From contig JAOACS010000025.1 in the NCBI GenBank assembly GCA_026417655.1, positions 1-64,000 of the forward strand: DNA of 64,000 bases, written 5' to 3'. The first letter of the stretch is position 1. Each line of letters opens with the position of its first letter. Source of the DNA: Syntrophobacterales bacterium. GTDB taxonomy: Bacteria > Desulfobacterota > Syntrophobacteria > Syntrophobacterales > Thermodesulforhabdaceae. The translations under genes were made by a program, and so were the position numbers. Positions 42,968 to 48,219 of the stretch are shown here, in pieces. The notes beneath the pieces were generated by a model. That model was given only the letters and a program-made list of their open reading frames with translations, had not been told where the DNA came from and ran no database searches.

Positions 42968-43002
42968 GTAAGGGCTTTTAAAATCTTGAGGGAGGATAGA
43001 AA

Positions 43003-43170
43003 ATGGTTTGTAGGTATTGCGGCGGAATAATTGTTCTGGTAAGAACATGACGAGCTATCTTCTGGCGCTGCAAGGAATGCGGCGAAAAATTTAAACTTGA
43101 GCAGATCAGAGAGGCCATTACAGAAGAGCTAGAAGAGCTTGTAGGATGGTGTCGGGTTGATAGATTGTGA
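43003..43170 (+). CDS. Small dual-CxxC protein with in-frame UGA (predicted selenoprotein)
   Basis: An ATG with GGGAGGA upstream opens MVCRYCGGIIVLVRT, then TGA at 43048-43050, then the same frame continues RAIFWRCKECGEKFK and a helical, Glu-rich tail to TGA at 43168-43170. Read through, the 55-residue product has two CxxC pairs (residues 3-6 and 23-26), a zinc-ribbon-like layout with the UGA codon (residue 16) between them. I recall a family of small dual-CxxC proteins in Desulfobacterota in which this position, after VRT, is Cys or selenocysteine. The second stop overlaps the rlmH GTG by GTGA, the usual coupled-gene arrangement, which supports full-length translation. A hairpin lies 15 bases after the UGA. 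Function unknown; probably redox or metal binding. Confidence 0.75.
43066..43084 (+). promoter_or_regulatory. Candidate bacterial SECIS hairpin
   Basis: A 7-bp stem CGCTGCA/TGCGGCG (one T-G wobble) with loop AGGAA begins 15 bases after the in-frame UGA. Bacterial SECIS upper stems lie at about this distance (11 bases in E. coli fdhF). The usual bulged U is not clear, so this is moderate evidence. Confidence 0.45.
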
Positions 43171-43649
43171 ACCAAGAGATGGAACTTAATTTTGTCTTTG
43201 TAGGTAAAACGGCTTTTACCGATGTTGAGCAAACAATTAGGCGGTATCTAAAGAAAATCAGAGGTTTTGTCCCCGTCCACGTCAATATCGTGAGGGAGGA
43301 AAGGGAGGCAAAGCATCGGAATCCCGAAGAGGTTATGGATAAGGAGGCCGAGCGGATTCTGAGAGCCATAGGGAAGAACGCCTATTTGGTTTCTTGGGAT
43401 CGCTCGGGAAAATTGATGACATCAGAGGAATATGCTCTCCTTTTAAGAAATTGGTTGGATCGGGGAATAAGGTCTGTTTATATGGTTGTAGGAGGGCAAT
43501 TAGGGCTTTCCCCTATTGTCCTTAAGGTGTCGCAGGAGATAATCTCCCTATCCCCCATGACCTTTCCCCACGATCTAGTAAGGGCTATAATAGCCGAACA
43601 AACATATAGAGCAATGACAATTATCCACGGTGTCCCCTACCATAGGTAA
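43167..43649 (+). CDS. rlmH: 23S rRNA pseudouridine-1915 N3-methyltransferase
   Basis: A 160-residue SPOUT methyltransferase (RlmH/YbeA) that methylates pseudouridine 1915 in helix 69 of the 70S ribosome. The family pattern is clear: LNFVFVGKTAF start, AYLVSWDRSGKLMTSEEYALLL, VYMVVGGQLGLSP knot motif, and the C-terminal LSPMTFPHDLVRAIIAEQTYRAMTII with a final GVPYHR. GTG start overlaps the upstream small gene by 4 bases (GTGA). The length is near the usual 155-160. Confidence 0.95.
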   Translation: MNQEMELNFVFVGKTAFTDVEQTIRRYLKKIRGFVPVHVNIVREEREAKHRNPEEVMDKEAERILRAIGKNAYLVSWDRSGKLMTSEEYALLLRNWLDRGIRSVYMVVGGQLGLSPIVLKVSQEIISLSPMTFPHDLVRAIIAEQTYRAMTIIHGVPYHR

Positions 43650-43745: not shown

Positions 43746-46700
43746 ATGTATATCATAGGATTAGACATAGGCTCAGTTAGCATCAACAGTGTGATTATAC
43801 GTAACAGTGGGTCTTCCTCAAAAGAAGTCGAGGAGATATTGGTAGAAGAGCTTCCCTACAGAAGACATTTTGGTCTGGTGAGAGAAGAGACCTTTAAGAT
43901 ACTAGATGATGTTATATCTCGTTATAGGGCGGAAAACATCACGGCTATAGCCATCACTGGCTCCCATGGAGAAAAGATCGCTAAAGAACTTGGGGCCTTC
44001 TACGAAGTAGAGACTATCGCTCAGGTAGTTGGAACCATTCACGTTGCTCCGGGGGTAAGGACCATTATAAGCATCGGTGGTCAAGATGCGATGCTATTTC
44101 AAATTGGTTATAACGAAGATGGAAGATGGTTTCTGGAGGGTTTTAATATAAATGGCCCCTGCGCTGCCGGGACAGGTTCTTTCATAGATCAGCAGGCTGA
44201 GCGATTAGCCCAGGTTATGTATGGAGGTAGTTCCTCTCAAGAACACCTTCAAAAGATCCTTGAAGACTTTATCTCTCTTGGACTTGAAAGCTCCTCTCCT
44301 TCACCGGTGGCCTGTCGCTGCACGGTCTTTACGAAGTCCGATATGATCCATCTTCAAAATAAGGGAGAACCTCTTCCTAATATTATTGCGGGTCTTCATT
44401 ACGGGAATGCGGCAAATTACATAAGCACAATTGTTGGAAACAGGGAAATTTTTGAACCCCTAGTGTTCGTTGGAGGCATGGCTTCTAACAAGCTACAGGT
44501 TCAGGCCTTTCGTTCCTATTTTCCTTCCCTTATTGTTCCCCCCTTTCATACCTCTGTGGGTGCCCTGGGGGTGGCCTTAATTGCCAAGGAACGAATGGCT
44601 AGTCACAAGATCGAGCTTAATGTCCTTAGAAATTACTCTGAAGGCAGTGAAGTCTTCGACCGTGCAGAACCTCTTAGGCTGGAATGGACAGTTTTTCCCA
44701 CCGATAATAAACTCCCACCGATAAAGAAATCTAAAAACAAACGTTACAGAGGGTTTCTTGGAATCGATATCGGTTCTACCACAACAAAGTATGCCTTCGT
44801 TGATGAAAGGGGTCTAATCATCCATAAAAACTATGTTCCCACTAGGGGACGTCCGATAGAGGTTACTCAGAATCTTCTAAAGGAGCTTTTTGAAACCTTT
44901 GGGGGTCGATGTAGCATCTTCGCTGTAGCGACGACGGGATCAGGGCGAAACGTTGTAGGTGATTTCCTCAATGCCGATCTTATAATAGATGAGATAACTG
45001 CCCACGCCAGGGGAGCGGTTGAGATAGATCCATCGGTTGACACGGTATTTGAAATTGGGGGTCAGGACTCCAAGTATATCTTTCTTCAGAATACCCATCC
45101 TATTGATTTCGATATGAATAAAGTCTGTGCAGCAGGAACTGGGAGTTTCCTCCATGAATTGGCTAATAAGATGAAAATAAATATTGTGGGAGAGTTTCAG
45201 GAGATTGCTCTATCGTCGAAATCTCCTCTAAATCTTGCAGATCGTTGCACTGTTTTCATGGAATCGGATCTAATAAGTTATGCCCAGAAGGGGGCTCGGC
45301 GCGAAGATCTAATCGCTGGATTATGCTATGCAATAGTTTATAATTATCTTAATCGAGTAATTGGGAAGAGATCGATAGGCGAAAGGATTATGTTCCTCGG
45401 GGGTCCTTCGCTAAATAAAGGGATTGTAGCGGCCTTCGAAAGAGTTATCAAAAAGCCGATCATTGTTCCGAAGCACCGAGAGGTAATGGGTGCCTTTGGA
45501 GCTGCTCTTTTAGTAAAGGAGCAGTGGGAGCAAAGGGGACTAAATTATAATTCCCCCGAGGTTAAGAGAAAAGTAGACATTAGAACCCAATCTATCTTTG
45601 AACTGATTGGGAATAGAGTGGAACACAAAGAAACTATATGTCGTGCCGATTCTAAGTGTCATAATGAGTGTAAACTCAAAATCTATAGTTTCGGTGGTAG
45701 AAAAAGCATTTGGGGAGGGGACTGCGGAAGATATGAGATCACCCATTACGATGGTCCAGCGGAAGTGGATTACGTAGCTGAACGGAATAGGCTCTTTTGG
45801 ACCCTCCTTAGTGAGTGGGATGTAGAGCCAGGAAAACTTTCCCAGGGTAGGTCGGATTTTCCTGTGATTGGTCTTCCCCTGGGACTTCATTTTTGGGAAT
45901 GGGCTGTATTTTGGATTCCAATTCTTAAACAGCTAGGATTTTCGGTGGTTCTTAGTCCTAAGACAGATCATGCTATAACTCGGGCAGGGATTGAATCGGT
46001 AACGGCAGAGATATGTTTTCCCGTTAAGGTTTTTCACGGTCACGTCAAATGGGTAGCGGAACGTTCGGACATGATTTTCCTTCCCACAGTCATAAACATG
46101 CCGGCTCTTCATGAAAGAGAGGTCAGCTTTTTCTGTCCACTTGTTCAGAGTAGCCGTTACGTTAGCGTCCAAGCCCTTTCCATTGAAAGATCAAGGCTAA
46201 TAGATCCAACGGTTTATCTCAAGGAGGGGTATGAACGGGTTGCCCATGTTTTAGCAAAATCTCTTCCCTCTTCCCTGAGGATTCCTCAGGATACGGTTCA
46301 GAAGGCGGTGTTATCTTCTTGGAAGCGGTATTGGAAGTTTAGGGATGATTTGAAGACTATGGGAGAGTCTATTATAGATAAGTCCCTTGAAGAATCTAAA
46401 CCGGTTTGGATCATCTCTGGAAGGCCCTATAACCTATATGATGGTCGTCTTAATCTCCAACTTGGTCAACACCTTGCCAAGAGGGGTATTAGGGCTCTCA
46501 CCATAGATATGCTCGATCTTGCCACTGAAGACATAAGTGATTTCCCCCGTATGTATTGGGGATTTGGATCAAGGATCATCCGAGCAGCCAAAAAAATTGC
46601 AAGGACTCCTCACCTTTACGGTTTACATATTACAAACTTTAGCTGTGGTCCCGATTCTTTTATTGAACATTTCTATAGACATGTCCTTCAAAATAAACCA

Positions 46701-46850
46701 GCTCTCATTCTAGAGTTCGATGAACATACCGCTGTAGCTGGAATCCTTACCAGGGTTGAGGCATACCAAAATGTGGTGAAGAATATTGAGAGGGGTCTCA
46801 CTACATCAGCCTCTGTAGAGGAAGTTTCCTTTGAGCAACTTAGCAATTAG
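43746..46850 (+). CDS. Large acyl-CoA dehydratase activase: two BadF/HgdC domains plus DUF2229
   Basis: A 1034-residue protein. Domain 1 (about 1-285) and domain 2 (about 337-605) are both ASKHA ATPase domains of the HgdC/BadF type: GLDIGSVSINS, GGQDAM and CAAGTGSF near residue 139, then GIDIGSTTTKYA, GGQDSKYI and a second CAAGTGSF. A DUF2229-type region follows (about 700-1030), with IGLPLGLHFWEWAVFW, EICFPVKVFHGHV and GRPYNLYD. A RCTVF Cys motif occurs in each ATPase domain. In many bacteria this fold continues into one chain of about 1400 residues; here the remainder is the next gene. The physiological target is not known. GAGGGA precedes the ATG. Confidence 0.88.
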   Translation: MYIIGLDIGSVSINSVIIRNSGSSSKEVEEILVEELPYRRHFGLVREETFKILDDVISRYRAENITAIAITGSHGEKIAKELGAFYEVETIAQVVGTIHVAPGVRTIISIGGQDAMLFQIGYNEDGRWFLEGFNINGPCAAGTGSFIDQQAERLAQVMYGGSSSQEHLQKILEDFISLGLESSSPSPVACRCTVFTKSDMIHLQNKGEPLPNIIAGLHYGNAANYISTIVGNREIFEPLVFVGGMASNKLQVQAFRSYFPSLIVPPFHTSVGALGVALIAKERMASHKIELNVLRNYSEGSEVFDRAEPLRLEWTVFPTDNKLPPIKKSKNKRYRGFLGIDIGSTTTKYAFVDERGLIIHKNYVPTRGRPIEVTQNLLKELFETFGGRCSIFAVATTGSGRNVVGDFLNADLIIDEITAHARGAVEIDPSVDTVFEIGGQDSKYIFLQNTHPIDFDMNKVCAAGTGSFLHELANKMKINIVGEFQEIALSSKSPLNLADRCTVFMESDLISYAQKGARREDLIAGLCYAIVYNYLNRVIGKRSIGERIMFLGGPSLNKGIVAAFERVIKKPIIVPKHREVMGAFGAALLVKEQWEQRGLNYNSPEVKRKVDIRTQSIFELIGNRVEHKETICRADSKCHNECKLKIYSFGGRKSIWGGDCGRYEITHYDGPAEVDYVAERNRLFWTLLSEWDVEPGKLSQGRSDFPVIGLPLGLHFWEWAVFWIPILKQLGFSVVLSPKTDHAITRAGIESVTAEICFPVKVFHGHVKWVAERSDMIFLPTVINMPALHEREVSFFCPLVQSSRYVSVQALSIERSRLIDPTVYLKEGYERVAHVLAKSLPSSLRIPQDTVQKAVLSSWKRYWKFRDDLKTMGESIIDKSLEESKPVWIISGRPYNLYDGRLNLQLGQHLAKRGIRALTIDMLDLATEDISDFPRMYWGFGSRIIRAAKKIARTPHLYGLHITNFSCGPDSFIEHFYRHVLQNKPALILEFDEHTAVAGILTRVEAYQNVVKNIERGLTTSASVEEVSFEQLSN

Positions 46851-46863
46851 AGGGGATAGGAAG

Positions 46864-48219
46864 GTGACGAATGTTCTTGAACACCCAACATTCAAACGTA
46901 TCACCGATCGGGTAGGGAAATTCAACCTAAAGGGTAAAAAATTACTGATCCCGGACATGGCACCTATTGGAGCTAGACTGTTTGCGGCCTCTTTCAGATC
47001 CTTTGGGGTTGATGCAGAGGTTATGGAGACCTGCAAAGGGCTTGATCTGGGAAAGGCCTTTACTTCTGGAAAAGAATGTTACCCCTGTCAGGTAACGCTA
47101 GGAGATGTGCTCTTTCATCTAAACCGTGAAAAGGAAAGGTTGGGAAAGGATTTTTCTCCTGAAAATTATGTTTATTTTCTACCGGAAGCCGATGGGCCCT
47201 GCCGATTTGGTATGTATAACAAGTTCCAGCGTCTTGTGTTGGATAGATTTCCTCAATTTGCTGATGTAAGGATCGCCTATCTATCCACTGCGGATGCCTA
47301 TTCGACCGAGGGAATTCTTCCTCCTGAAGAGGCTTCTCTTTTTAGGAAGCTTTCCTATGTGGGTATGGTCGTTGTTGACGTCTTAGATAGGATCACCTGG
47401 AGAGTAAGACCCTATGAACGTATTCCTGGATCGACCGATAGGCTCATAGAGGAAGCTGTGAGAAAACTTGAAGCTCTTCTCTCTGAGAGGGGAAGGAAGT
47501 TACCATTTAAGGAAATGTATGAAATTGTCGAGGACACAGCGGAAAAGGCTAAAGCCCTTATTGACTATCGGATACCTCGTAAGCCTAAGATAGGTATAGT
47601 TGGGGAGATTTATCTTCGGACTCACCCTGGATCAAATCAAAACCTCATCCGTCTTATAGAGCGCTTTGGTGGCGAAGTGGTCAATGCCTCACTTTCCGAG
47701 TGGTTTAATTTCGTGAGCTATGAGGGGCTTAGAAAGCTTTCTAGAGAGATTAGACTTGCCTGGCATCTTCGGTATCATCGTTCTTTATGGCCTTTTACCA
47801 AAAGACTTATCGCTCAGGGGCTAGAGGTCGGTTATCAAACTATAAGGCAGAGACAAGTTTACAGGAGGGTCCTTGATAAGCTCGATATACAACCGGATCA
47901 TTCTGTGTGGAGGATCGAGAGCCACTTAAGGAAATCGGGGCTCTTTTCTTTTCAAATAGGTACAGAGGCTGCCCTCAGTATAGGGGGAGCCATTGAGTAT
48001 ATCCTTGAGGGCTTCGATGGTATTGTAAATGTCTTTCCCTTTACCTGTATGCCCAGTACAGTTTGTGCGGCAATTCTTAGGCCTATTCTCGCAAGATACC
48101 GTATTCCCTATCTCGATGTGGCCTATGACGACTCGATCCAACCCAATAGAGAGATGGCTATAAGGACCTTCGTCTATCAAGCTTCTCAGAGGAGATTTCA
48201 AAAGGCAAAAGGGGCATGA
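46864..48219 (+). CDS. Second half of split activase (HgdB/DUF2229-related)
   Basis: A 451-residue protein homologous to the C-terminal part of the large activase-type proteins, related to 2-hydroxyacyl-CoA dehydratase beta-like folds. Cys-containing segments LLIPDMAPIGARLFAASF, TSGKECYPCQVTLGD and FPFTCMPSTVCAA are typical. A TTG start at 46831 is in frame, but the GTG at 46864 has GAGGGG 8 bases upstream and leaves no overlap with the activase. It is 13 bases after the activase stop and ends with an ATGA overlap into RNase G. It probably forms a complex with the preceding protein. Confidence 0.85.
   Translation: MTNVLEHPTFKRITDRVGKFNLKGKKLLIPDMAPIGARLFAASFRSFGVDAEVMETCKGLDLGKAFTSGKECYPCQVTLGDVLFHLNREKERLGKDFSPENYVYFLPEADGPCRFGMYNKFQRLVLDRFPQFADVRIAYLSTADAYSTEGILPPEEASLFRKLSYVGMVVVDVLDRITWRVRPYERIPGSTDRLIEEAVRKLEALLSERGRKLPFKEMYEIVEDTAEKAKALIDYRIPRKPKIGIVGEIYLRTHPGSNQNLIRLIERFGGEVVNASLSEWFNFVSYEGLRKLSREIRLAWHLRYHRSLWPFTKRLIAQGLEVGYQTIRQRQVYRRVLDKLDIQPDHSVWRIESHLRKSGLFSFQIGTEAALSIGGAIEYILEGFDGIVNVFPFTCMPSTVCAAILRPILARYRIPYLDVAYDDSIQPNREMAIRTFVYQASQRRFQKAKGA

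Follow-up and report, generated by a model that had tools for sequence, protein, structure and literature searches.

The segment at 43003-43170 of the window (the whole 64,000-nucleotide stretch analyzed here) is very probably a true bacterial selenoprotein gene, in which the UGA at 43048 is predicted to be read as selenocysteine between two CxxC pairs. Chance is a very poor explanation for it, in view of a family profile score of 52.9 bits, of the retention of the UGA in relatives, and of synonymous-codon shuffling of the window sequence, which gave an equally stable bSECIS-type hairpin in a fraction of 0.00 of 300 shuffles. As sequence-based predictions, the gene, the position of the UGA, the SECIS element and the decoding machinery are all well supported. 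The selenoprotein adds one more member to a family described before and does not found a new one; the finding is in this sense an ordinary one and reveals no new kind of system.

A sequence-only reading of this DNA had proposed a single 55-codon frame that opens with an ATG behind a ribosome site, runs through CxxC, UGA and CxxC, and carries a hairpin 15 bases after the UGA. Direct reading and translation confirmed the frame, and the placement of the hairpin proved exact, its stem beginning 15 nt past the UGA at 43066. The product reads MVCRYCGGIIVLVRT-U-RAIFWRCKECGEKF...CRVDRL-stop, in full MVCRYCGGIIVLVRTURAIFWRCKECGEKFKLEQIREAITEELEELVGWCRVDRL, where U stands for the TGA at 43048-43050. This is the only internal TGA of the frame, and the terminal TGA lies at 43168-43170. 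The putative ribosome site is purine-rich and AGGGAGG-like, and a GGGAGA is found at a similar place in the sister species. The coordinates of all features are collected in Table 1.

Table 1. Coordinates, within the window, of the predicted selenoprotein gene, its elements and its downstream neighbor
Feature	Position	Strand	Description and evidence
Putative Shine-Dalgarno (GAGGGAGG region) 5' of ATG 43003	42989..42996	+	Direct sequence reading
CxxC-Sec-CxxC small selenoprotein gene (predicted)	43003..43170	+	55 aa + stop TGA; translation, NF041197 match, orthologues
First CxxC codons (C3-x-x-C6)	43009..43020	+	Each Cys identical across the 52-member alignment
UGA codon in frame (residue 16), predicted to encode selenocysteine	43048..43050	+	UGA or Cys in all aligned members
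Predicted bSECIS hairpin CGCUGCA-AGGAA-UGCGGCG	43066..43084	+	7 bp, 5-nt loop, loop 22 nt after UGA, G at loop position 2
Second CxxC codons (C23-x-x-C26)	43069..43080	+	Each Cys identical across the 52-member alignment
Codons of C-terminal motif CRVDRL	43150..43167	+	In most members unchanged or altered conservatively; D53 conserved at 90% or more
rlmH (SPOUT methyltransferase) from its probable start, downstream neighbor, not part of the selenoprotein	43179..43649	+	PF02590, 144.9 bits, aligned from residue 1

The translated protein matches NCBIfam model NF041197, "dual CXXC motif small (seleno)protein" (CxxC_Se_CxxC, alias OS_HP3), with an E-value of 2.9e-14 over profile positions 1-53 of 53, at a score above the curated cut-off of 40 bits, and it has the two CxxC pairs flanking a Sec/Cys position that characterize this family. 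The model is now included in NCBI's annotation library, and a search of Pfam returned no family at its cut-off for the same protein. A 2026 review of prokaryotic selenoproteomes lists NF041197 as "Dual CXXC motif small protein (hypothetical protein OS_HP3)" with the motif RxU (PMC13188914), and OS_HP3 also appears in a 2022 review, credited to the work of Zhang and Gladyshev 2007 on the Olavius algarvensis symbiont (PMC9312934). The small dual-CxxC proteins, Cys- or Sec-containing, to which the first reading had referred are this family, as shown by the profile match and the 2026 review. Window protein and family share their length, the two CxxC pairs, the intervening Sec/Cys in an RxU context and the C-terminal DR(L/I). 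There is no essential difference between them; the window member has Sec and precedes rlmH in its genus.

Two other groups of small proteins invite comparison. The Lar family (TIGR03655 / PF14354) is likewise small, dual-CxxC and zinc-ribbon-like, and some NF041197 members show weak profile similarity to it, but their Lar scores lie under the cut-off. The window protein matched no Lar model in NCBIfam, and we do not place it in that family; we know of no selenocysteine site that is part of the Lar family. The FmdB-family selenoproteins (putative regulatory proteins with UxxU or CxxU) are also small Cys-pair selenoproteins described in the same literature, but their Sec lies inside a Cys-pair-type motif, whereas the window protein has a lone Sec between two intact CxxC pairs. 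Many genomes of the phylum carry, in addition, a second dual-CxxC gene with a mid-gene UGA and the pattern C-x-x-CGG-x-A...G-x-U...ARV-x-C...CG (L081, L083, L085). Read with U as C, these second copies score 42-46 bits against NF041197, just over its cut-off, and 16.7-22.5 bits against Lar (cut-off 39.6); they look like a distinct subfamily.

The AlphaFold2 model of the product (pLDDT 82, pTM 0.56) places a beta-hairpin (strands 9-14 and 19-23) between the CxxC pairs and Sec16 at the turn of this hairpin; the C-terminal part is helical. Fold searches gave weak matches to zinc ribbons such as RPB9, with a best Z of 3.4 and no Foldseek E-value below 0.001. The model and these weak matches lead us to propose a protein with Cys-bound zinc and a reactive selenol. 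At the decoding step, SelB carrying Sec-tRNA(Sec) very probably binds the hairpin at 43066-43084, and selenocysteine is inserted at the UGA at 43048. The resulting 55-residue product, probably cytosolic and zinc-ribbon-like, would hold zinc (probably one Zn) through the four Cys of its two CxxC knuckles, and would display Sec16 at the turn of the beta-hairpin, ahead of an acidic helix ending in CRVDRL. Exposed at the hairpin tip, the lone selenol would most likely serve as a reactive nucleophile in thiol, peroxide or metal chemistry, or as a switch. We hold the chances to be about even that Sec16 plays such a redox or metal-nucleophile role. A further conserved Cys able to pair with Sec is absent from some members (those with IRADRL and some with IIYD tails), so that a simple redox couple between Sec and a C-terminal Cys is not universal in the family.

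The same gene might instead encode a zinc-ribbon regulator that binds nucleic acids or proteins, with Sec/Cys acting as a switch or as an extra metal ligand and not as a catalytic redox center. In favor of this function are the zinc-ribbon-like character of the sequence, its weak similarities in Pfam to Zn_ribbon_6 and Lar, and a fold that weakly resembles zinc ribbons of the RPB9 type. The retention of Sec in many lineages, however, suggests a need for selenol reactivity, and we consider the regulator a serious possibility, though not a probable one.

The identification of the gene itself draws on its relatives. Of the 40 nearest genomes, a set that includes the one from which the window comes, 34 have the gene, with exactly one TGA per orthologous match, and 81 of 297 genomes of the phylum gave a match at E ≤ 0.001. 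All 60 loci that we retrieved, 43 with UGA and 17 with Cys, align at the same position between the CxxC pairs, so the alignment of the UGA with Cys in homologues, which had been put forward as a check, is borne out by the 17 Cys-form members. Among 52 aligned members, C3, C6, U/C16, C23 and C26 never vary, and E44, like D53, is at least 90% conserved. Between the window and a sister species, whose protein is about 75% identical, nucleotide changes fall at codon positions 1, 2 and 3 in the numbers 3/1/7 before the UGA and 8/4/20 after it. Third positions thus account for 7 of 11 and 20 of 32 changes, respectively, and this bias on both sides of the UGA indicates that the frame is under protein-level constraint either side of it. 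Around the hairpin, the two species share the 21 bases TGGCGCTGCAAGGAATGCGGC without change.

These comparisons bear on the suggestion that the UGA is a true stop, whether in a pseudogene, through a sequencing error, or at the end of a 15-residue leader peptide regulating rlmH. UGA is after all a normal stop codon and rlmH lies directly downstream, but the same UGA recurs in those 34 of 40 related genomes, the CxxC pair and CRVDRL beyond it are conserved, the codon-position-3 bias persists past it, and rlmH is the neighbor in only 2 of the 60 loci examined. We regard a true stop as highly improbable.

Decoding as selenocysteine is further indicated by the genome as a whole (2.3 Mb in 31 contigs, 96% complete). 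The sequence-only reading implied that the organism has selA, selB, selC and selD, and all four were found: profile matches gave 627.9 bits for SelA, 403.6 bits for SelB and 370 bits for SelD, and a tRNA-Sec with a TCA anticodon scored 75.9 bits. The genome therefore has the complete Sec machinery (SelA, SelB, tRNA-Sec and SelD) expected alongside a bacterial selenoprotein gene. The SelD gene (G000:C11:37019-37942, L089) has an in-frame TGA of its own near the N-terminus (...RAAG-TGA-AAKIG...), and is presumably one of the known kind of SelD selenoproteins.

The hairpin downstream of the UGA, to whose stem the second CxxC codons contribute, was compared with a published model of the bacterial SECIS, which calls for a stem of 4-16 bp, a loop of 3-9 nt, a G in the first two loop positions and a loop lying 16-37 nt after the UGA (PMC13188914). 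The hairpin at 43066-43084 satisfies this model, which answers the bSECIS prediction that had been suggested at the outset. In both synonymous-shuffle tests of the hairpin, on the window sequence and across the family, the encoded protein was kept constant. A stem of at least 6 bp in the same register is present in 33 of the 43 UGA members, as against 7.4 on average (sd 2.3, maximum 15) over 1000 synonymous-shuffled sets, and in 1 of the 17 Cys members, as chance predicts; the sequences are related, and these numbers overstate their independence. Sec and Cys forms nonetheless differ clearly, and a stem that is a feature of the UGA members but not of the Cys members means that the recoding signal tracks the UGA. 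A G occupies one of the first two loop positions in 41 of the 43 UGA members. The folding energy of the hairpin is unremarkable against dinucleotide shuffles (z of -0.9 to -1.6), and support for the element comes from its register, the synonymous codon choice and the family comparison, not from folding energy. A search of the locus against Rfam gave no match over threshold.

Reading of the UGA as another amino acid, such as Trp, through a changed code or a suppressor finds little room next to these data, since every non-UGA member examined has Cys at the site and never Trp, the genome holds the complete Sec apparatus, and the SECIS hairpin accompanies UGA members and not Cys members; we give it almost no weight. 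Equally remote is a real gene on the opposite strand (ORF 42978-43232, minus strand), for although this minus-strand frame runs uninterrupted over the gene in the window, the three antisense frames are open in 22, 7 and 11 of the 43 UGA members, with the window's open frame in only 7, and it is the sense frame that family homology and the pattern of substitutions track.

We also considered whether the Cys form, if confined to Sec-using genomes, might hint at a role in selenium metabolism, and rejected this idea. All 17 of the 17 genomes with the Cys form have SelA, but so do 273 of the 297 sampled genomes of the phylum (92%), which makes the presence of SelA uninformative. In one genus (family f10; G044, G080 and G115), two incomplete genomes carry a UGA member and gave no SelA match, and G115, the third genome of that genus, is also without one. 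SelB matches above the cut-off in G044 and G115 suggest that the missing SelA likely reflects genome incompleteness.

The neighborhood of the selenoprotein gene varies among relatives. In the window, the final stop had been described as overlapping rlmH by GTGA, with an rlmH start at GTG 43167. This start is probably wrong: both the profile alignment and the sister species, in which the rlmH ATG lies at the same offset, with its own GAGG site and past the TAA stop of the selenoprotein gene, point to ATG 43179. We conclude that rlmH probably starts at this ATG, past the selenoprotein stop, and the GTGA overlap is then likely due to chance. Across the 60 loci examined, rlmH was the neighbor in only 2 genomes of one genus, and the linkage appears incidental and confined to that genus as far as examined. 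One may speculate that the family is a zinc ribbon whose lone hairpin-tip selenol senses or effects selenium or redox state, and that in this genus decoding of the UGA makes expression of the adjacent rlmH selenium-dependent via translational coupling, but we consider this combination very unlikely.

Elsewhere in the order, 15 loci have a TGS-domain GTPase nearby in divergent orientation and 18 loci an alanyl-tRNA synthetase in convergent orientation. Among the Cys forms, the gene is in many cases (10 loci) preceded by a phosphoribosyltransferase reading as pyrE. The search for a functional link through the neighborhood yielded no consistent partner, and the arrangement looks like synteny. In the Cys-form loci L058-L064 and L068-L070, the phosphoribosyltransferase lies upstream by a few bases or overlaps the gene, and in four of the Cys-form loci (L058, L059, L061 and L064) a PilZ-type protein is encoded downstream on the same strand. 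The Cys-form gene and the phosphoribosyltransferase, together with the PilZ-type protein in those four loci, form a probable operon.

A scan of the window for other TGA-interrupted frames, with at least 60 codons on each side, returned three candidates that look chance-like by eye. Downstream of rlmH, positions 43746-46850 of the window encode a large fusion protein, a BadF/BcrA-type CoA enzyme activase (BcrAD_BadFG + DUF2229), followed on the same strand by another long ORF at 46831-48219.
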